Assembly: GCF_000422305.1 (NCBI RefSeq)
Contig: NZ_AULN01000017.1
Coordinates: 159,561-223,560, forward strand
DNA length: 64,000 nucleotides
Direction of reading: 5' to 3'
Source: Luteimonas mephitis DSM 12574
Lineage (GTDB): Bacteria > Pseudomonadota > Gammaproteobacteria > Xanthomonadales > Xanthomonadaceae
The translations under genes and the position numbers were made by a program. Under the pieces are notes generated by a model, which saw nothing but the letters and a program-made list of their open reading frames with translations, was not told the origin of the DNA and ran no database searches. Positions 16,640 through 49,306 of this stretch are shown piece by piece (the first letter of the stretch is position 1; each line of letters opens with the position of its first letter).

Positions 16640-16858
16640 ATGTCGAAACTGCTCGATCTGATGAGGAAGCTTGGCAGCGATGCCGCGCTGGCGGAGGAGT
16701 ACGGGAAGGATCCGGAGGCGGTCTTGCGTCGTGCCGGCGTGACCGACGAGGAGCGCAGGGCGATGCTGGAGAGTGATTACGCGGCGGTCGGGAAACTCAC
16801 CGGGCTCGCGGAAGGGCAGTACGCCACCAACCACACCATCAAGGCGTACGACAAGTAG
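16640..16858 (+). CDS. Borosin-type precursor peptide, locus 1
   Basis: A 72-residue peptide (MSKLLDLMRKLGSDAALAEE...) whose first about 55 residues match the helical borosin-binding domain of split-borosin precursors: an opening helix ending LG(S/Q)DA, then YGKDPEAVLRRAGVTDEE, then helix RRAMLESDYAAVGKLTG. The C-terminal tail after GLAEGQ (YATNHTIKAYDK) is the candidate core. Family knowledge: SonA of Shewanella has this size and layout and is methylated near its C-terminus by a separate enzyme. The start is set by GGGGGA 6 nt before ATG 16640. The methyltransferase fusion starts 29 nt after the stop. A LigA-type dioxygenase subunit has a similar fold, but no LigB partner is present. About 300 bp upstream hold no other gene. 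Confidence 0.82.
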   Translation: MSKLLDLMRKLGSDAALAEEYGKDPEAVLRRAGVTDEERRAMLESDYAAVGKLTGLAEGQYATNHTIKAYDK

Positions 16859-16887
16859 CGCCGGCCTCCGTCGCCAGGTACCTGCGC

Positions 16888-19422
16888 ATGTTCCGGCTGG
16901 TCGCGATCGCGTTGCTGTGGCTCGCGTTCGCCTGCGCTCCCGCGTTCGCGGTCGATTCGTCGCCTGCGAACGCGGCGCTGGAGGCGAAGGTCCAGGAGAT
17001 CGAGCAGCTCGCGGTCACCGAGCACTGGAGCAAGTCGGATGCCGCGATTGCCGCGCTGGCGCAGCAACGCAGTGCGCTGACGCCGCTGCAGCGGCAGCGC
17101 ATCGAGTTCATCAGCCTGCGCAATCGCGCCCTTGCCGGCGACCAGCCAGCGGCGCTGAAGGGCCTGGCCGAGCTGTTGAAGCAGGACATGCCGGTGCCTC
17201 TGCGCGTGCGCATCTACGCCACGGCCACCGGCGTCGCCGCCAACCTCGAGGATTGGCCGCTGGCGTTCGCGTGGCTCAACGAGGGCCTGAAGTACCTGCA
17301 CGACAGCCCCGCGGAATCGGCCAGGCTGCTCGGGGCCGCCAGCTACCTGCACACGCTGGTCGGAGAAACCGGGCGCGCACGGGAGCTGGCGCTGCAGGCG
17401 CTGCACATCGTCGAAACCGGGGACGATCCGCGCGCGCTGTGCCTGGCGCTGAGCGACGTGGCGCTGGCCGAGGATCACGCCAGCCATTTCCGCGAGGCGG
17501 AGAAATGGCGCCACCGCCAGATCGAAGCCTGCGTCCGCGCCGGGGATCCGGTCTTCGTCGCCAACGGCAAGTACGGCGTGGGCAAGATGGCTGCGGCCCA
17601 GGGGCACCACGCCGAAGCGCTGAAGTGGGGGCGCGAGGCGCTCGCCGAGTTCGAGGCGGTGGGCTATGCGGTCGGTGCGCACAGCGCGAAGCTCGTGATC
17701 GCCGAAAGCCTGATTGCCTCGAACCGGCAGCTCGACCAGGCCCAGGCGATGCTGGTCGACACGCTCCGGTACTACAAGGAGCAGAAGTCCGACCTGGCCG
17801 TCGCCGAGACCGAGCGGTTGCTTGCCAGGCTCGCCGAAAAGCGCGGCGACATCGCTGCGGCGCTGCTGCACACCAAGCGGGCGATGGAAGTGTCCGGAGC
17901 CGTCGAGGTCGTCGCGCGCGAGCGTCGACTGGCTTACCTGCAGGTGCAGTTCGACACGAAGTTGAAGGAACAGCAGATCGCGTTGCTGGAGTCGGAGAAG
18001 CAGGTCGCCGCCCTGCAGGTCACCGCGAACAAGCGCCGGCAATGGCTGCTGGCCATCGGCATGGCCGGGTTGCTGGTCACCGCCATCCTGCTGCTGGTGC
18101 TGCTGCGGCGATCGTTCCGCCAGCGCCGCCGCTACCGCTGGCTGTCCGAGCACGACAGCCTGACCCGCCTGCTCAACTACCAGCAGGTGCGCAAGCTTGG
18201 CGAGCAGGCATTCGCGCGCGCGCGCGGTACCGGGCGGCCGTTCACCGCGATCGTCGCCGACATCGATCTGTTCAAGCAGGTCAACGACCGCCATGGCCAC
18301 GCGGCCGGCGACGAGGCATTGCGCAGCCTTGCCGGCTGGATCAGCGAAACGGTGGGCGCGAGCGGCGTCGCCGGGCGCAGCGGTGGCGACGAGTTCACGA
18401 TCCTGCTCGAAGCCGATGCGGCGGAAGCCGAGGCGATGCTGCAGCGCCTGCGCGGCCGGATCGAGCCGATCACGGTGTTCGGGCAGACCTTCCGGTTCAA
18501 CATCAGCTCCGGGGTCTGCCAGGCCAACGGGCACGCCGACACGCTGGAGCAGCTGATCCACGAGGCCGACCAGGCCCTGTACCGGGCCAAGAGCGAAGGG
18601 CGCGACCGCATCGTCCGCGCCGGCGACGCGCCCGCCGAACCGGCGCCGGCCGCCGGACTGGTGGTCGTCGGCAGCGGCATCCAGTTCGGCCGCCATGCCA
18701 GCGAGCGCTGCCTGTCGGAGATCCGCGAGGCCGAGGTGGTGTTCTGCCTGGCCGACGCGTTTGCGCTGGCGATGATCCACGACTTCCGGCCCGACGTGAT
18801 CAACCTCGGCGTGCATTACGCGCCGGGCAAGGACCGGCGCCAGACCTATCGCGAGATCGACGAGGCGATCATGGCGCAGGTCCGCGCTGGCAAGCGGGTC
18901 TGCGCGGTGTTCTACGGCCATCCGGGCGTGTTTGCCGACGTGCCGCACGCGGTGGTGCGCAAGGCGCGCGCGGAAGGCATCCCGGCGCGCATGGAACCGG
19001 GTATTTCCGCCGAGGCGTGCCTGTATGCCGACCTGGGCATCGATCCGGGCCATCGCGGCGTGCAGTCGATGGAGGCGACCCATTTCATGGTCTACGACCG
19101 CCAGCCCGACCCCGCCGGCCTGGTGCTGCTGTGGCAGGTGGCGCTGTCCGGCGACCTGGCCTGCAGCCGCCTGCACGCCGAGCGCGAAGGGCTGCAGGCG
19201 CTGGTCGACAAGCTGCTGCGCTGGTACCCGCCCGACCACGAGGTCATCCTCTACGAGGCCGCGCGGCTGCCGATCGAAACCCCGCGCGCGGAGCGTCTCG
19301 CGCTGCGCGACCTGCCCTCGGCGCACTACGAGGAATACACCACCCTCGTGATCCCGGCGTTGGGCGAACTGCGCGACGATCCGGATTGCGCGCGCGAAGC
19401 GGCGAGTCCCGGGAAGGCCTGA
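16888..19422 (+). CDS. TPR sensor-GGDEF-borosin methyltransferase fusion
   Basis: 844 residues in five parts. Signal sequence 1-22 (ending PAFA). Periplasmic TPR-like helices about 23-350. Coiled coil about 350-384. Membrane helix about 386-407. Cytoplasmic GGDEF domain with intact GGDEF at 499-503 and no RxxD inhibitory site. From about 590 comes a SAM-dependent tetrapyrrole-methylase-fold domain of the borosin family: GSGIQFG SAM loop (595-601), Y644-x5-R650-x3-Y654 and Y676 in FYGHPGVF, then MEPGISAEACLYADLGIDP at 702-720. These four residues keep exactly the spacing I recall for catalytic Tyr66/Arg72/Tyr76/Tyr98 of OphMA. Predicted roles: c-di-GMP synthesis and backbone amide N-methylation of the upstream peptide, both on the cytoplasmic side. 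I know of no described protein with this domain order. Confidence 0.88.
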   Translation: MFRLVAIALLWLAFACAPAFAVDSSPANAALEAKVQEIEQLAVTEHWSKSDAAIAALAQQRSALTPLQRQRIEFISLRNRALAGDQPAALKGLAELLKQDMPVPLRVRIYATATGVAANLEDWPLAFAWLNEGLKYLHDSPAESARLLGAASYLHTLVGETGRARELALQALHIVETGDDPRALCLALSDVALAEDHASHFREAEKWRHRQIEACVRAGDPVFVANGKYGVGKMAAAQGHHAEALKWGREALAEFEAVGYAVGAHSAKLVIAESLIASNRQLDQAQAMLVDTLRYYKEQKSDLAVAETERLLARLAEKRGDIAAALLHTKRAMEVSGAVEVVARERRLAYLQVQFDTKLKEQQIALLESEKQVAALQVTANKRRQWLLAIGMAGLLVTAILLLVLLRRSFRQRRRYRWLSEHDSLTRLLNYQQVRKLGEQAFARARGTGRPFTAIVADIDLFKQVNDRHGHAAGDEALRSLAGWISETVGASGVAGRSGGDEFTILLEADAAEAEAMLQRLRGRIEPITVFGQTFRFNISSGVCQANGHADTLEQLIHEADQALYRAKSEGRDRIVRAGDAPAEPAPAAGLVVVGSGIQFGRHASERCLSEIREAEVVFCLADAFALAMIHDFRPDVINLGVHYAPGKDRRQTYREIDEAIMAQVRAGKRVCAVFYGHPGVFADVPHAVVRKARAEGIPARMEPGISAEACLYADLGIDPGHRGVQSMEATHFMVYDRQPDPAGLVLLWQVALSGDLACSRLHAEREGLQALVDKLLRWYPPDHEVILYEAARLPIETPRAERLALRDLPSAHYEEYTTLVIPALGELRDDPDCAREAASPGKA

Positions 19423-19722: not shown

Positions 19723-20583
19723 ATGAAAGCTCCCGCCGCCCTGCAGGCGCTCATCGACGATGGCGTCATCGACGAGGTCATGCGCCCCCTCAAGAGCGGC
19801 AAGGAAGCGGCCGTGTACGTGGTGCGCGGCGGCGGCGAGGTGCGCTGCGCGAAGGTCTACAAGGACATGGCGCAGCGCAGCTTCCAGCAGCGCGTGCAGT
19901 ACCAGGAAGGCCGCAAGGTGCGCGGCAGCCGCGAAGCGCGCGCGATGGGCAAGGCCACGCGCTACGGCCGCAGGCAGCAGGAAGAGGCCTGGAAGAACAC
20001 CGAAGTAGACGCGCTGTACAAGCTGCGCGACGCGGGCGTGCGCGTGCCCGAGCCGCACGGTTTCTTCCACGGCGTGCTGGTGATGGAGATGGTGACGGAT
20101 GCGGAGGGATTCGCCGCGCCGCGGCTGGGCGAGTACGAGCCAACGCAGGAGCAGGCGCGCGCCTTCCACGCGGTGCTGGTGCGACAGGTGGTGCGGATGC
20201 TGTGCTGCGGGCTGATCCACGGCGACCTGTCGCCGTACAACGTGCTGGTCGATGCCGAAGGCCCGGTGCTGATCGATTTCCCGCAGGTGGTCAGCGCCGC
20301 CGGCAACAATGCCGCGCGGCAGATGCTGCTGCGCGACGTCAACAACCTCACCGCATACCTGGGGCGCTGGGCGCCGGAGCTGCTCGACACCTGGTACGGC
20401 GAGGAGATGTGGGCGCTGTTCGAGGCCGGCGCGCTGCAGGCCGACACGCCGCTCACCGGTACCTTCGAGCACGACGAGCGCCTTGCCGACATCGGCAGCG
20501 TGCGCGAGGCGATCGAGGAAGCGCGCCAGGAAGCGCTGATCCGCCAGCAGGGACGCGAGGCGGCGGAGGCCGATCACACGTAA
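19723..20583 (+). CDS. PA4780-family RIO1-like protein kinase
   Basis: A 286-residue RIO-type Ser/Thr kinase. The ATP-loop region is PLKSGKEAAVYVVRGGG with KVYKDM carrying the lysine. The catalytic loop is LIHGDLSPYNVLV and the metal-binding Asp is in VLIDFPQVV. The insertion RSFQQRVQYQEGRKVRGSREARAMGK is characteristic of the bacterial PA4780 family. Substrates are unknown; roles in ribosome or stress physiology are suggested for relatives. It is monocistronic, with only a degenerate TAGGAT box before the ATG and no clear Shine-Dalgarno. Confidence 0.9.
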   Translation: MKAPAALQALIDDGVIDEVMRPLKSGKEAAVYVVRGGGEVRCAKVYKDMAQRSFQQRVQYQEGRKVRGSREARAMGKATRYGRRQQEEAWKNTEVDALYKLRDAGVRVPEPHGFFHGVLVMEMVTDAEGFAAPRLGEYEPTQEQARAFHAVLVRQVVRMLCCGLIHGDLSPYNVLVDAEGPVLIDFPQVVSAAGNNAARQMLLRDVNNLTAYLGRWAPELLDTWYGEEMWALFEAGALQADTPLTGTFEHDERLADIGSVREAIEEARQEALIRQQGREAAEADHT

Positions 20584-20949: not shown

Positions 20950-21570
20950 TTACTCGACGGCGATCGTGCCCTTCATCAGCGCGGAGTGGCCGGGGAAGCT
21001 GCAGAAGAACTCGTACGGACCGCCATCCTTGATCTTGCTGACGGCGAAGCTGACCGAAGTGGTCTCGCCGCCGCCGATCAGGCTGGTGTGCGCGATGACG
21101 CGCGGGTCGTCCGCCTTGACGTAGGCGGCGGCTGCGCCGGCACCCATGCCCTCGGCCGCGACCGCCTGCATGTCGGCGGCCTTGGTGATCACGACGTTGT
21201 GGCCCATCGCGGCCACCGGCATCGTCCCGGTGTGCTTCAGGGTGATCTTGAACTCGGTGCACGAAGCGGGGACGACGATCGACCCGACGTTGAACTGCAT
21301 CGCGTCGGTGCCTTCGATCTCGGTGGCGCAGTCGGCGACGACGGCAGCGGGCTTGTCGCTGCCCAACGCGGTCGCGGCGGGTGCCGGGGCGGCCGCGTCG
21401 ACGGCTGCCGGCGCTTCGGCAGGCGCGGCGGTATCGGCCGGCGCGGTCTCGACGGCTTCGGTTGGCGCGGTGGCCGCAGCCGTGGTGTCGGGGGTGGCTG
21501 GCGACTTGTCGCCACAGGCCGCGAGGGCGAGCGTGCAGGCGGCGGCGAGGAGGGCGATGCGGGTATTCAT
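20950..21570 (-). CDS. azu: Azurin with lipobox and Ala/Pro linker
   Basis: 206 residues. A lipoprotein signal (lipobox LAAC, C19) is followed by an Ala/Pro/Thr-rich linker to about residue 70 and then the cupredoxin domain. Type 1 copper ligands are all present: H124 in MGHNV, C190 and H195 in FFCSFPGH, and M199. The azurin disulfide (C81, C104) is also there. It carries single electrons in the periplasm between cytochromes or to peroxidase or nitrite reductase. The linker and lipid anchor make it a membrane-tethered azurin. Start ATG 21570 follows AAGGAG. Confidence 0.92.
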   Translation of the reverse strand: MNTRIALLAAACTLALAACGDKSPATPDTTAAATAPTEAVETAPADTAAPAEAPAAVDAAAPAPAATALGSDKPAAVVADCATEIEGTDAMQFNVGSIVVPASCTEFKITLKHTGTMPVAAMGHNVVITKAADMQAVAAEGMGAGAAAAYVKADDPRVIAHTSLIGGGETTSVSFAVSKIKDGGPYEFFCSFPGHSALMKGTIAVE

Positions 21571-21751
21571 GGTGGGAGCTCCTTGTGGAAATTCGCCGCG
21601 CATTATTCTCCATCGAACCGGAGGTTGTCGTGAAATCCGCGGCCATGGCGGGTGAAAGACGCGGCCGCTTGACCGGCGTCAAGAGAACGGCGGGAGGCGC
21701 CTTGCATCATGGCCCGGCCGGCGGATGCCGATATTCCAGAAGGAAACCGCA

Positions 21752-45694: not shown

Positions 45695-46261
45695 GTGCTC
45701 GCAGACCTGTACACGCCGCGCCTGCACCTGCGGCCGCTGGCGCCTTCCGACGAACGGTTGTACTGCAGCCTTTACACCGACCCGGCGGTGATGCGCGACG
45801 TCGCCGAGCCACTCACGGCCGATGCTGCGGCGCGCGCATTCAGGACGGTGCTGGGGCAGCTTGCCGCGCGCCCGCCGCGATCGCGCTACTGGGTCCTGGG
45901 CCTGCGCGGGGATCGTGGTGACGTCGGCCTGATGGCTTGGATGCCGGACCGCGGCGATCCCGGCTCGGCCGAGGTTGGCGTGATGCTGGCCGGTGGCGCA
46001 GGGTGCCGCGGCTACGCCAGCGAGTCGATTGCGGCGCTGGCGGATGCCGTCTTTGCCCGCCCCGGGGAGCGACGGCTGTGGGCGCGCCATGCCCGCGGCA
46101 ACGGCCCCGCGCTTGGCCTGATGCGCAGGCTGGGGTTCGTGCCTCTGCCCGACGCCAACGCCGCCGCCACGATCCCGGCTTCGCAGCGGTGGCAGCTGGA
46201 CCGGCAGGCCTGGGTCGATCGACGGGAGCCGGCTTTTGCGCCGGTCGCGGCCAGCTGGTAG
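45695..46261 (+). CDS. GNAT N-acetyltransferase (RimJ/RimL-like)
   Basis: 188 residues from a GTG start at 45695 (VLADLYTPRLHLRPLAPSDE), 2 nt after the HD gene's stop. The RimJ-type opening TPRLHLRPLAPSDERL, LGLRGDRGDVGLMAW, the CoA loop region AGCRGYASESIAALADAVF and ARGNGPALGLMRRLGF are typical. It acetylates an amine of an unknown substrate. Its position 27 nt before the borosin methyltransferase gene makes it a candidate tailoring enzyme, but this is inference. Confidence 0.87.
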   Translation: MLADLYTPRLHLRPLAPSDERLYCSLYTDPAVMRDVAEPLTADAAARAFRTVLGQLAARPPRSRYWVLGLRGDRGDVGLMAWMPDRGDPGSAEVGVMLAGGAGCRGYASESIAALADAVFARPGERRLWARHARGNGPALGLMRRLGFVPLPDANAAATIPASQRWQLDRQAWVDRREPAFAPVAASW

Positions 46262-46288: not shown

Positions 46289-47095
46289 ATGGCAGCGATG
46301 AAGGGAAGTTTGTCCTGCGTGGGCCTCGGCATGATGCTCGGCGCCCACGTCGGGCCGCGCGCGCGCGCCACCATCGAGCAGGCGGACGTCGTGTTCGGCG
46401 CCGTCTCCGATCCGCTGGTCGAGCTGTGGCTGCAACAGATGCACGCCGACGTCCGCAGCCTGCAGCCCTGTTACGCCGAGGGCAAATCCCGGCACGAGAC
46501 CTATCGTGAAATGGTCGACTCAATGCTGGCCGAGGTTCGCGCCGGCCGCCAGGTCTGCGGTGCGTTCTACGGCCATCCCGGCGTGTTCGCGGGCGTGCCG
46601 CACAAGGCCATCGCGCAAGCGCGCGCCGAAGGCTTCGATGCGCACATGGAACCCGGCGTTTCCGCGGAAGACTGCCTCTACGCCGACCTGGGGATCGATC
46701 CGGGCGAGTTCGGCTGCCAGCACTACGAGGCCAGCCAGTTCATGTTCTACCGCCGCCGGATTGATCCGTCGGCATGCCTGGTGCTCTGGCAGGTAGGCGT
46801 GGCCGGCGATCGCACGGCCCGGCGTTTCAGTACGGAACCGGCCTACCGTCGGCTGCTGGTCGAACGCCTCGTCGAGGACTACCCGGCCGATCATGTCGTG
46901 ACCCTCTACGAAGCCGCCACGCTGCCGATCGGCGCGCCGCGGATGGAGTCGTTGCCGCTGGCGCGATTGATGGATGCGGAGCTGCGGATGCAGACCACGC
47001 TGGTGGTGCCGCCCGCCATCCCCATGCAGCGCGACCACCGGATGATGGAAAGGATCCGTGGGCTGGATGAGCAAACTGCGGCGGCTGCGGCCTGA
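46289..47095 (+). CDS. Borosin-type peptide N-methyltransferase, locus 2
   Basis: A 268-residue stand-alone SAM enzyme of the split-borosin (SonM-like) group. The glycine loop is CVGLGMMLGAHVG (about 11-23). The catalytic set is Y62-x5-R68-x3-Y72 (YAEGKSRHETY) and Y94 in FYGHPGVF. Then come MEPGVSAEDCLYADLGIDP, YEASQFMFY and LVLWQVGVAGD. It is clearly homologous to the C-terminal domain of the fusion at 16888-19422, with the same residue spacing. It should methylate backbone amides of the peptide encoded 46 bp downstream. Precorrin methylases share the fold but not these motifs, and no cobalamin genes are near. The ATG at 46289 follows GGGGGGAT. Confidence 0.9.
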   Translation: MAAMKGSLSCVGLGMMLGAHVGPRARATIEQADVVFGAVSDPLVELWLQQMHADVRSLQPCYAEGKSRHETYREMVDSMLAEVRAGRQVCGAFYGHPGVFAGVPHKAIAQARAEGFDAHMEPGVSAEDCLYADLGIDPGEFGCQHYEASQFMFYRRRIDPSACLVLWQVGVAGDRTARRFSTEPAYRRLLVERLVEDYPADHVVTLYEAATLPIGAPRMESLPLARLMDAELRMQTTLVVPPAIPMQRDHRMMERIRGLDEQTAAAAA

Positions 47096-47141
47096 CCCGG
47101 ACCAGCAAGATGTCCAACCATTCCAGGCAAACGGGTGAACC

Positions 47142-47435
47142 ATGACGAACGTGATCGGATTTCTCGAGGCATTGGGCCGGACCCCCGCGTTCCCGCAGGC
47201 TGCGAGCGCGGCCTGGGCCGCACTCGACGGGCTCGCGGTTGGCGAGGACCAGCGCAAGGCGCTGGCCGATGCAGACGCCGGCGCGCTGAACACCCTGCTG
47301 GGCGGGCGTGCATTCATGGCGCTGCACATCCTGGCGCCCGATGGCGATGAAGGGCCTGCCAGGGACGCGCCCGATGATGGGGAACCGGAACAGCCGGGGA
47401 CCGAAGAGCCGGGTGAGATGGAGAAGCCCGGCTGA
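47142..47435 (+). CDS. Borosin-type precursor-like protein, locus 2
   Basis: A 97-residue protein (MTNVIGFLEALGRTPAF...) between the methyltransferase and cyclase genes. Residues 1-57 align in order with the locus 1 peptide: opening helix ending LGRTPAF against LGSDAAL, then LAVGEDQRKALADADAGALN against AGVTDEERRAMLESDYAAVG, then LLGG against LTGL. The candidate core FMALHILAPDGDE takes the place of YATNHTIKAYDK. It alone carries a further about 25-residue acidic Pro/Glu/Gly tail. Identity is low, so its role as a precursor rests on position and layout. The ribosome site is GGGTGA. Confidence 0.72.
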   Translation: MTNVIGFLEALGRTPAFPQAASAAWAALDGLAVGEDQRKALADADAGALNTLLGGRAFMALHILAPDGDEGPARDAPDDGEPEQPGTEEPGEMEKPG

Positions 47436-47464
47436 TTGCAGGCCATGCGTCCTGCGGGAGGCGG

Positions 47465-49306
47465 ATGATGTTCATGCGTGCGTGCTGGATCGTGATGCTG
47501 TGGGTGGCCGTGGCTGCGGCCGCGATGGCCGCGTCCGACTTCGGCAAGGCGCTGCACGACGCGGACCTGATCCGGACCTCGGACCCGGCGAAGTTCAGGC
47601 GCGCCGTGGAAGACCTCGACAAGCGGGCAGGAACGGCCACGCGCGAGGAGCGGCAGTATCTTCGGCTGCTGGACGCCTACAGCATGATCCTGGCGGGAGA
47701 GTTCGACGGCAGCATCCGCGAACTGACGGTGTTGCTCGCGCAGGGTCCGGATGCGGACCTCAAGGTGCGCGCAGGCGCCCTGCTGGTCAACGTGTATGCC
47801 ATGACACGCGACTTTGCCGAGGGGTTGCGAACCCTGGATGACCTGCTTTCAGTGGTCGACTCGGCGAAGGACAAGGATGCGCGGCAACAGGGCCTGCTCG
47901 CGGCGACATTGATCTACAACCAGGTGGGGCAGTACCACCTGGGCCAGCAGTACGCCGACCGCGTGCTGGCCGACGCTCCCGGCGAGCGCTACCTGTGCAT
48001 GGCATCCAACATGCGGCTGGAATCGCTGCAGGGACAGGGCAAGGCCCTGGCGGACGAGGCGTACGTCGAGGCGGCCACCAGGTGCCAGGAAATCGGCGAG
48101 CCGATCGCAGCCAACCTGGTCCGCAGCTACCTGGCGCGCAAGTGGTTCGACGAGGGCAAGGTCGATGCCGCCATCGGGCTGCTTGCCGGGCACCTGGATG
48201 AAGTCCACGCCACCGGCTACCGGTACCTGATCAGCGAGTTCAACGCGCTGCTGGCGAAGTTCCGCCTTTCCAGGGGAGACGTCGCGCTGGCCGAGTACAA
48301 CGCCAAGGTGGCGATCGAGCACCAGGACGGTTTCCAGACCAGCCTGCCGCTTTCCGTTGCATACATGGTGCTCTACTCGATCGCCCAGAAGCGCGGAGAT
48401 GCCGCCGCCGCGCTGGTGTACTACAGGCGCTATGCCGAGGCCGACAAGGCCTATCTCAACGAAACCAAGGCGCGCGAAATCGCCTACCAGATCGTCCAGA
48501 GCGAAACCAAGGCACAGGCGCAGCAGATTGAACTGCTCAACCGCGAAAACCAGCTCCTGCAGCTGCAACATGGCATCAGCGTGCAGAAGGCGCAGACCTC
48601 GCGCCTGCTGATCCTGCTGCTGGTGGTGCTGGTCGGCACGGTCAGCTATTGGGCCTTGAAGACCAAGCGCATGCAGATGTCACTGCGGCGGATGGCGGAA
48701 ACCGACGCACTGACCAGTGTCTGCAATCGCCACTACTTCAACCAGCAGTCAGTGCAGACGCTGGCGCATGCCGCGCGGGCCGGCGAGGACGTGGCGCTGG
48801 TGATGTTCGACCTCGACCACTTCAAGTCGATCAACGATCGCTTCGGGCACGACACCGGCGACTGGGTGCTGAAAAGGGTTTCCGATCACTGCCGGACGTT
48901 CTGCCGCCGGGTCGACCACTTCGGCCGCATCGGCGGCGAGGAGTTCGCGATCCTGCTTTCGGGCTGCGACCTGCGCGGGGCCAGGCGCGTCGCCGAGGAC
49001 TGCCGCGTGCGCATCGCCAGCATCGACAGCCAGGCCAGCGGCCACAAGTTCCTCATCACCGCCAGCTTCGGCGTGACGGCCTCGTCGCTGTCGGGCTACG
49101 ACCTGGCCAAGCTGCTCTCGCATGCGGACAAGGCGCTGTACCGCTCCAAGCGCCAGGGTCGCAACCGGGTGTCGACGTTCGATGGCGACGTGCAGCCGTG
49201 GACGCAGCTGCAGGTAGTGGCGATCGAAAGCCTGTCGACGCCAGGGGGGCCGCCGGCGCCGGAGGAGGCGCCGGACCACCGTCCCTTTCAGAACCTGATC
49301 TCCTGA
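47465..49306 (+). CDS. TPR sensor-GGDEF diguanylate cyclase, borosin locus 2
   Basis: 613 residues. Signal sequence (ending AMAASD), periplasmic TPR-like helices about 25-330, coiled coil about 335-378, membrane helix about 381-400, cytoplasmic GGDEF domain (TDALTSVCNRHYF, FDLDHFKSINDRFGHDTGD, GGEEF at 490-494). An RxxD product-inhibition site is present (R481-D484), unlike in the fusion protein. The architecture equals the first 570 residues of the protein at 16888-19422 without the methyltransferase. It begins 29 nt after the precursor gene, the same gap as in locus 1. ATG 47468 is an alternative start with better spacing to GGAGG. It should make c-di-GMP in response to a periplasmic signal. 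Confidence 0.92.
   Translation: MMFMRACWIVMLWVAVAAAAMAASDFGKALHDADLIRTSDPAKFRRAVEDLDKRAGTATREERQYLRLLDAYSMILAGEFDGSIRELTVLLAQGPDADLKVRAGALLVNVYAMTRDFAEGLRTLDDLLSVVDSAKDKDARQQGLLAATLIYNQVGQYHLGQQYADRVLADAPGERYLCMASNMRLESLQGQGKALADEAYVEAATRCQEIGEPIAANLVRSYLARKWFDEGKVDAAIGLLAGHLDEVHATGYRYLISEFNALLAKFRLSRGDVALAEYNAKVAIEHQDGFQTSLPLSVAYMVLYSIAQKRGDAAAALVYYRRYAEADKAYLNETKAREIAYQIVQSETKAQAQQIELLNRENQLLQLQHGISVQKAQTSRLLILLLVVLVGTVSYWALKTKRMQMSLRRMAETDALTSVCNRHYFNQQSVQTLAHAARAGEDVALVMFDLDHFKSINDRFGHDTGDWVLKRVSDHCRTFCRRVDHFGRIGGEEFAILLSGCDLRGARRVAEDCRVRIASIDSQASGHKFLITASFGVTASSLSGYDLAKLLSHADKALYRSKRQGRNRVSTFDGDVQPWTQLQVVAIESLSTPGGPPAPEEAPDHRPFQNLIS

Follow-up and report, generated by a model that had tools for sequence, protein, structure and literature searches.

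A TPR-GGDEF protein fused to a borosin-type methyltransferase in Luteimonas mephitis, and the linkage of split borosins to TPR-GGDEF genes

The DNA considered here is a 64,000-nucleotide (nt) stretch of Luteimonas mephitis DSM 12574 (contig NZ_AULN01000017.1, positions 159,561 to 223,560 of the forward strand), called the window below and numbered from its first letter. Two adjacent genes of this window encode a 72-amino-acid (aa) peptide resembling the split-borosin precursor SonA and an 844-aa protein in which tetratricopeptide-repeat (TPR)-like helices, a transmembrane (TM) helix, a GGDEF domain and a borosin-type N-methyltransferase are joined in a single chain. These open reading frames (ORFs) have the following features:

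16640..16858, + strand: SonA-like borosin precursor, 72 aa (leader of the borosin-binding-domain type, residues ~1-56; putative core, ~57-72); phmmer match to SonA, E 1.6e-8; related ORF at 20/21 fused loci
16888..19422, + strand: fusion protein, 844 aa (signal segment, TPR-like sensor, TM helix, GGDEF, borosin N-methyltransferase)
16960..17844, + strand: TPR-like sensor, residues ~25-319, predicted periplasmic, with the Cys pair C185/C215; AlphaFold2 helical-repeat model
18046..18102, + strand: predicted TM helix, residues 387-405; hydropathy
18148..18609, + strand: GGDEF domain, residues 421-574, with an intact GGDEF motif and no RxxD inhibitory site; Pfam and motif counts
18658..19371, + strand: SonM-type alpha-N-methyltransferase domain, residues 591-828, with Y644/R650/Y654/Y676

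The fused locus and a second locus in the window

Both ORFs of the original prediction, which was made from the sequence alone, lie at these positions with 29 nt between them, and its reading of the peptide as a split-borosin precursor holds, since the match to SonA (7ltc_B) covers residues 1-57. In 20 of the 21 fused loci that we read in the window's family, a precursor-related ORF lies at the fused gene or immediately before it, so that the pairing of precursor and fusion is not a product of chance; the remaining locus (L051) starts where its contig does. With a stricter iterated profile, from which ORFs longer than 260 aa were left out, such an ORF is recognized in 17 of the 21. The leader also gives weak, below-cut-off matches to the IniB N-terminal model and to NHLP-type leader models of ribosomally synthesized and post-translationally modified peptides (RiPPs).

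In the fusion protein, Pfam recognizes a GGDEF domain (residues 421-574, E 1.3e-34) and a TP_methylase domain (residues 591-792, E 2.8e-19), with TPR matches only below the cut-off. Two hydrophobic segments, residues 4-22 and 387-405, flank the TPR part at both ends, and on this basis the TPR part is predicted to be periplasmic and the GGDEF and methyltransferase parts cytosolic. An AlphaFold2 model shows the TPR part as a run of helix pairs with block values of the predicted local distance difference test (pLDDT) of 85-97 across residues 31-330, within a whole-fusion model that has a mean pLDDT of 80.3, a predicted template-modelling score of 0.47 and a poor methyltransferase part. Pfam domains, hydropathy and helix pairs agree with the domain order originally proposed, TPR-TM-GGDEF-methyltransferase.

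Against SonM chains, the fused methyltransferase part scores E 6e-71 with 50% identity; for OphMA-type chains the E-values lie between 4e-38 and 5e-34. The original prediction had named cobalamin/siroheme methylases as the competing match, but the best tetrapyrrole (corrin) methylase scores only 2e-4, and the NCBIfam models of these enzymes are far below cut-off for the fused protein. Residues Y644, R650, Y654 and Y676 align with SonM Y58, R67, Y71 and Y93, which were mutated in the study from which the SonM numbering is taken (PMC8429565), and this alignment confirms the earlier claim of a borosin-type enzyme with intact Y/R/Y/Y residues. All four are kept in 20/20 fused enzymes, a count that omits the fused locus L033 with its short aligned stretch, and in 151/151 split enzymes examined. 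Judged by its sequence, the C-terminal domain is a member of the SonM-type borosin N-methyltransferase family and would be expected to catalyze the corresponding reaction. The GGDEF domain is intact, as had been claimed: its motif is present, and it is a diguanylate-cyclase-type domain with predicted activity.

When residues 585-844 were used as the query, 7997 candidates were scored and 309 relatives found. All of the 120 relatives listed carry both PF00590 and PF00990, and the named relatives among these matches, which include Luteimonas, Pseudoxanthomonas and Rubrivivax, are nearly all labelled diguanylate cyclase. Two of the fused relatives are from Rubrivivax gelatinosus (P0074 and P0110), and one genome may hold two fused cassettes. 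Moreover, a GGDEF domain is mentioned in the legend to Figure 1 of PMC11395268 (2024), a figure of borosin architectures whose types go back to Imani 2022, Cho 2022 and Lee 2024; in the available parts of that paper, GGDEF occurs twice, both times in this legend, and TPR and diguanylate nowhere. The GGDEF architecture of the figure is probably the TPR-TM-GGDEF-methyltransferase fusion. The original statement that no RiPP enzyme was known to be fused to a diguanylate cyclase has therefore to be withdrawn: the legend, together with the many fusions in databases, excludes a unique fusion, and the fused architecture is already known, at least from a figure.

Three genes flanking the locus in the window, which encode an outer-membrane barrel, a RIO1 kinase and an azurin-like protein, recur beside 0/19 other fused loci, and the precursor and fused gene therefore look like a two-gene cassette. 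The two downstream neighbors are:

19723-20583, + strand: RIO1-type kinase
20950-21603, - strand: azurin-like copper protein

In a crude list of the longest ORFs near fused loci, no further family recurs at more than 5 of the 20. If all overlapping ORFs of at least 90 aa are taken, the largest families span 13, 8 and 8 of the 20, and these may be genes or out-of-frame ORFs of GC-rich DNA.

About 27 kb downstream of the fused locus, the window holds a second, unfused locus (46289-49306) that was absent from the original prediction:

45695..46261, + strand: GNAT acetyltransferase directly upstream of the unfused methyltransferase; Pfam Acetyltransf_3, E 1.4e-20
46289..47095, + strand: standalone SonM-type methyltransferase, 268 aa, 49% identical to SonM and 49% to the fused domain
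47142..47435, + strand: putative precursor, 97 aa, with a hydrophobic putative core followed by an acidic Pro-rich tail
47465..49306, + strand: unfused TPR-TM-GGDEF protein, 613 aa; GGDEF, E 2e-42

For the 97-aa putative precursor, Pfam yields nothing at E 0.1, and PDB matches do not go below E 0.37; an iterated profile finds relatives of this ORF in 133 of 151 split loci. No Pfam TPR match is obtained for the 613-aa protein at E 0.01, and its TPR region is modelled at a mean pLDDT of 94.7. Relatives of the GNAT gene lie within 2.5 kb of 92/151 split loci versus 0/21 fused loci.

Linkage across genomes and at the SonM/SonA locus

The linkage of methyltransferase, precursor and TPR-GGDEF gene is general, in a sample that is partly biased, and extends to the SonM/SonA locus. 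A borosin-type methyltransferase is present in 104 of 297 genomes of the window's family, and 21 of the 107 loci read in this family sample are fused (two rows, G020:C38 and G160:C25, each scoring the same as another row of its genome, were left out). Among the 86 split methyltransferases, 77 have a same-strand GGDEF gene less than 2 kb downstream, with a median gap of 341 bp; the chance of a GGDEF neighbor is about 0.5% per gene, as estimated from the 17 GGDEF matches in the window's genome. Of the remaining nine, five (L110, L117 and L134-L136) have more than 5 kb without a GGDEF gene, and four lie near contig ends, where 0-2,103 bp remain. Outside the family, we took all 22 matches in the class and phylum samples: 10 loci have the usual split order (methyltransferase, precursor, TPR-GGDEF), two have another order or orientation (L149 and L153), three have a histidine kinase, and seven have nothing of the kind.

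Altogether 229 loci were read, of which 198 have distinct methyltransferase domains. These are made up of 21 fused loci, 151 split loci in the usual order, three in another order, three with a histidine kinase, seven that are cut short and 13 with none of these partners, so that fused, usual-order and other-order loci together account for 175/198. This total is biased, because it includes 20 Shewanella-type places and 80 named loci (from Lysobacter, Luteimonas, Pseudoxanthomonas, Rhodanobacter, Dyella, Shewanella, Neiella and Rheinheimera, among others) that were chosen because they best matched an alignment made from seven linked enzymes; the family, class and phylum samples were not selected by a match to linked enzymes. 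One of the 13 loci without a partner encodes an enzyme with none of Y58, R67 and Y71, which for this reason may not be a borosin enzyme, and L248, counted in the same class, has a downstream GGDEF ORF without a TPR match.

The SonM/SonA locus itself follows the pattern. A SonM search of the genus of genome G1002 gives matches in 67 of 77 genomes, one at 100%. At this locus (L239), 44 nt separate SonM from the next ORF, a peptide that agrees with PDB 7ltc_B at 71/71 residues. If the earliest start codon is used, a 596-aa ORF begins immediately after SonA (a gap of 0 nt); this ORF carries a GGDEF domain (E 1.3e-38) and has sub-cut-off TPR matches. Given that SonM is SO1478 and SonA SO1479 (PMC8429565), the TPR-GGDEF gene would be SO1480, for which our literature search found no publication; the terms "diguanylate cyclase" and "tetratricopeptide" are absent from the main text of PMC8429565. 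TPR-GGDEF genes lie downstream in 18 of the 20 Shewanella-type places, the other two being L248 and L249, which ends inside a next gene that matches the TPR query. In L255 and L256, also Shewanella-type and counted as split despite their broken frames, the TPR-GGDEF gene is divided into two ORFs, as is the methyltransferase in L256. The SonA leader (L239:6828-7043) has a low-E phmmer match to TAL-effector repeats in which no single stretch passes, probably a sum of weak helical-repeat matches.

Linkage is not a rule for all borosin-type enzymes, given that no TPR-GGDEF gene is found within 2 kb at L134-L136, L141-L145 and L158, which are more distant, or at L110, L117 and L140. In three loci (L139:6828-10312, L156:6881-9987 and L157:1054-4502), a methyltransferase and a SonA-like peptide of 67-72 aa are accompanied by a TPR hybrid histidine kinase in place of the TPR-GGDEF protein. 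The distant borosin-type enzymes of L134-L136 (ORFs of 450-513 aa) and L158 (1174 aa) are longer and have other architectures, and L142:3504-5767 holds three neighbors on one strand: a precursor-like 77-aa ORF, a methyltransferase of the distant borosin type, and a 410-aa protein that by eye resembles a transporter. Two tandem TPR-GGDEF genes lie downstream of one methyltransferase in L055, L060, L074, L080, L186, L202, L205, L216 and L238, and two or three precursor ORFs are recognized in 20/198 loci; together these look as if peptide and sensor genes duplicate.

A methyltransferase tree was built from 104 rows, among them SonM and 35 of the other split loci picked at random. In this tree, one branch can be taken to separate off the fused enzymes, with a support of only 70. 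The fused branch lies inside a starred group (99) with the split relatives L138 and L153, SonM is placed among Shewanella split loci, and the histidine-kinase loci branch outside. The order at L153 is precursor, TPR-GGDEF, methyltransferase, as separate ORFs of which the last two overlap in different frames, an arrangement like that of the fused cassette but with unfused genes.

The TPR part and its candidate ligand

A search with the TPR region of the unfused GGDEF protein gives matches in 98 of the 297 family genomes, and 96 of these are among the 104 genomes with a methyltransferase, compared with 34 expected (Fisher p 1.6e-65, a value that overstates the association because the genomes are related). 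The eight genomes with a methyltransferase only are accounted for by three fused loci whose TPR part is unmatched at E 1e-8 (G088, G139 and G290) and five loci without a GGDEF partner, and in the window's genome the TPR query matches the two borosin loci only. A TPR sensor without a methyltransferase match is seen only in G164 and G193 (2/98).

Two cysteines, C185/C215 in the fused and C178/C207 in the split protein, align column for column and occur in 18/18 fused and 146/146 split aligned sensors; the pair is missing from the three histidine-kinase sensors. C178 and C207 are on neighboring helices of the split-sensor model, where they would be suitably placed for a periplasmic disulfide. Comparison of the split TPR part alone, rather than of the whole-fusion model, reveals a fold resembling the pheromone receptors Rap, NprR and AimR, among other TPR proteins, although a family missing from the listed matches is not thereby excluded.

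Co-variation of the peptide with its partners was computed for 110 split loci with one recognized precursor and a full GGDEF partner. Corrected for methyltransferase, GGDEF and leader, the core co-varies with the TPR part at a partial rank r of 0.31 (0/200 permutations); the values are 0.08 for core and methyltransferase (6/200) and 0.09 for core and GGDEF (5/200). Leader and methyltransferase give 0.30, as expected from the docking role of the leader, and leader and TPR give 0.15. The long helix and TM segment of the TPR-GGDEF protein contribute 0.02 once the TPR part is included, and the acidic tail co-varies with the TPR part at 0.24. For the 59 loci of the family alone, the figures are 0.20 (core-TPR), -0.04 (core-methyltransferase), 0.15 (core-GGDEF), 0.02 (tail-TPR) and 0.03 (long helix); for the other 51 loci they are 0.22 (core-TPR), 0.22 (core-methyltransferase) and 0.34 (tail-TPR). 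An earlier calculation, also for the whole set, agreed with these results. The co-variation is modest in size, and the permutations ignore phylogeny.

Many gammaproteobacteria carry these parts side by side as separate genes, also at the SonM/SonA locus, and these borosins are therefore likely to be signals, which would be read through cyclic diguanylate (c-di-GMP). We give an even chance to the proposal that the fused locus is a self-contained peptide signalling cassette whose TPR part binds the mature borosin and alters c-di-GMP synthesis; the borosin peptide, rather than the external signal of the original prediction, is the likely ligand. By homology to SonA/SonM, the precursor leader would dock on the methyltransferase domain, after which the core would be N-methylated on its backbone with S-adenosylmethionine, freed by some peptidase and moved across the inner membrane. 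Backbone methylation is said to favor membrane permeability (PMC8429565) and could serve export of the core. Outside, the core may bind the TPR superhelix as peptides bind Rap, NprR and AimR, which is suggested by the fold, by the confinement to borosin genomes and by the co-variation, and the signal would then pass through the TM helix to the GGDEF part. Split loci provide the same parts from separate genes, and in the three more distant loci the output would be a hybrid histidine kinase. More tentatively, at slightly less than even chances, gammaproteobacterial split borosins including SonM/SonA would be backbone-N-methylated pheromones with an RRNPP-like periplasmic TPR receptor and a c-di-GMP or phosphorelay output, the window fusion being synthase and receptor in one chain.

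Export is the main gap in this proposal, since no transporter was seen accompanying the cassette, although none was sought by profile. As to the peptidase, shewasin A reportedly processes a borosin precursor, in work attributed to Lee 2024. Relatives of a pepsin-like peptidase lie near 23/151 split loci, with PF00026 in L186 and L192; a PF00026 search of the window's genome gave no match, but the controls matched nowhere either. The bacterial pepsin homolog shewasin D is located mainly in the cytoplasm (PMC4814920).

The TPR part might instead sense some other periplasmic cue and control two outputs, c-di-GMP and peptide methylation, so that the borosin would be an effector product and not the ligand. 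The peptide would then need no export before sensing, which suits the lack of a recurring exporter among the neighbors seen; the fused methyltransferase does occupy the position of an output domain, and over all loci the co-variation of the core with methyltransferase and GGDEF is non-zero. At split loci, however, the methyltransferase is a separate protein, yet the TPR-GGDEF gene is just as tightly linked. Moreover, the TPR part is nearly absent without a methyltransferase, and within the family the co-variation with the TPR part involves the core, not the tail or the long helix. We therefore regard sensing of another cue as rather unlikely.

Biosynthetic clusters often carry regulators, and co-regulation by itself might explain the linkage if the borosin were a secreted natural product (metal-binding or antibiotic, for example) whose production is timed by a c-di-GMP switch. 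The GNAT gene, and sometimes a pepsin-like peptidase, beside split loci would fit such a cluster, but this explanation accounts neither for a sensor nearly confined to borosin genomes nor for the single-chain fusion in 21 family-sample loci, and we think it improbable. It is very improbable that the GGDEF part is a non-catalytic dimerization scaffold pairing two methyltransferase domains. The RxxD inhibitory site, which is common in GGDEF cyclases but not required, is indeed found in 0/20 fused GGDEF domains versus 114/146 scorable split partners; the GG[DE]EF and D-x-D-x-F-K motifs, however, are kept in 20/20 fused proteins, and residues of this type are usually lost from degenerate GGDEF domains. 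Finally, a tetrapyrrole methylase beside an unrelated peptide has practically no chance of being correct and is ruled out at the sequence level by the SonM and corrin-methylase scores given above, for although TP_methylase is the sole Pfam family for the domain, 4/4 borosin residues are present and a SonA-like peptide adjoins.

Comparison with known systems

The window locus resembles SonM/SonA, the type IV split borosin of Shewanella oneidensis (PMC8429565; PDB 7LTC and others), in having a methyltransferase that is 50% identical with 4/4 of the studied residues, and a related leader in a precursor of 72 aa versus 71 aa for SonA; as seen in this analysis, a TPR-GGDEF gene directly follows SonM/SonA too. 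Unlike SonM/SonA, it has the precursor ahead of the fusion, with the methyltransferase attached C-terminally to the TPR-TM-GGDEF protein, and its core has a different sequence. With the borosin architecture in Figure 1 of PMC11395268 it shares the GGDEF domain named in the legend. Our literature search found no published link of borosins to TPR sensors or c-di-GMP, and it did not reach the key survey papers, where such a link may well stand. To our knowledge, no function has been reported for bacterial split borosins. The near-obligate link of enzyme, peptide and TPR sensor, also at SonM/SonA, makes borosin function directly testable in a laboratory strain, and SonM has already been solved and kinetically characterized (PMC8429565). 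If the signalling proposal is true, bacterial borosins would be a new kind of c-di-GMP peptide signal; Gram-negative c-di-GMP signalling would gain a branch based on modified peptides, RRNPP-type sensing would have a counterpart in the periplasm, and the fusion would put synthase and receptor for one peptide in one chain.

The RRNPP class of peptide-pheromone receptors (Rap, NprR, PlcR and AimR) is cytosolic, with DNA-binding or phosphatase-type outputs. The window-type sensor has a TPR superhelix resembling that of Rap, NprR and AimR, but it is predicted to be periplasmic and is associated with a peptide that has its own methyltransferase. Its output part is GGDEF, and the forms linked to GGDEF share an invariant Cys pair; at three loci, a TPR protein is joined to a histidine kinase instead. 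A second comparison is with RpfF, the synthase of the fatty-acid signal DSF (diffusible signal factor), and RpfR, the cytosolic PAS-GGDEF-EAL c-di-GMP enzyme that reads DSF. As proposed here for the window cassette, a signal synthase is there paired with a c-di-GMP enzyme that senses the signal, whereas in the cassette the signal would be a ribosomal peptide, sensed by a TPR-GGDEF protein that is predicted to lie in the membrane.

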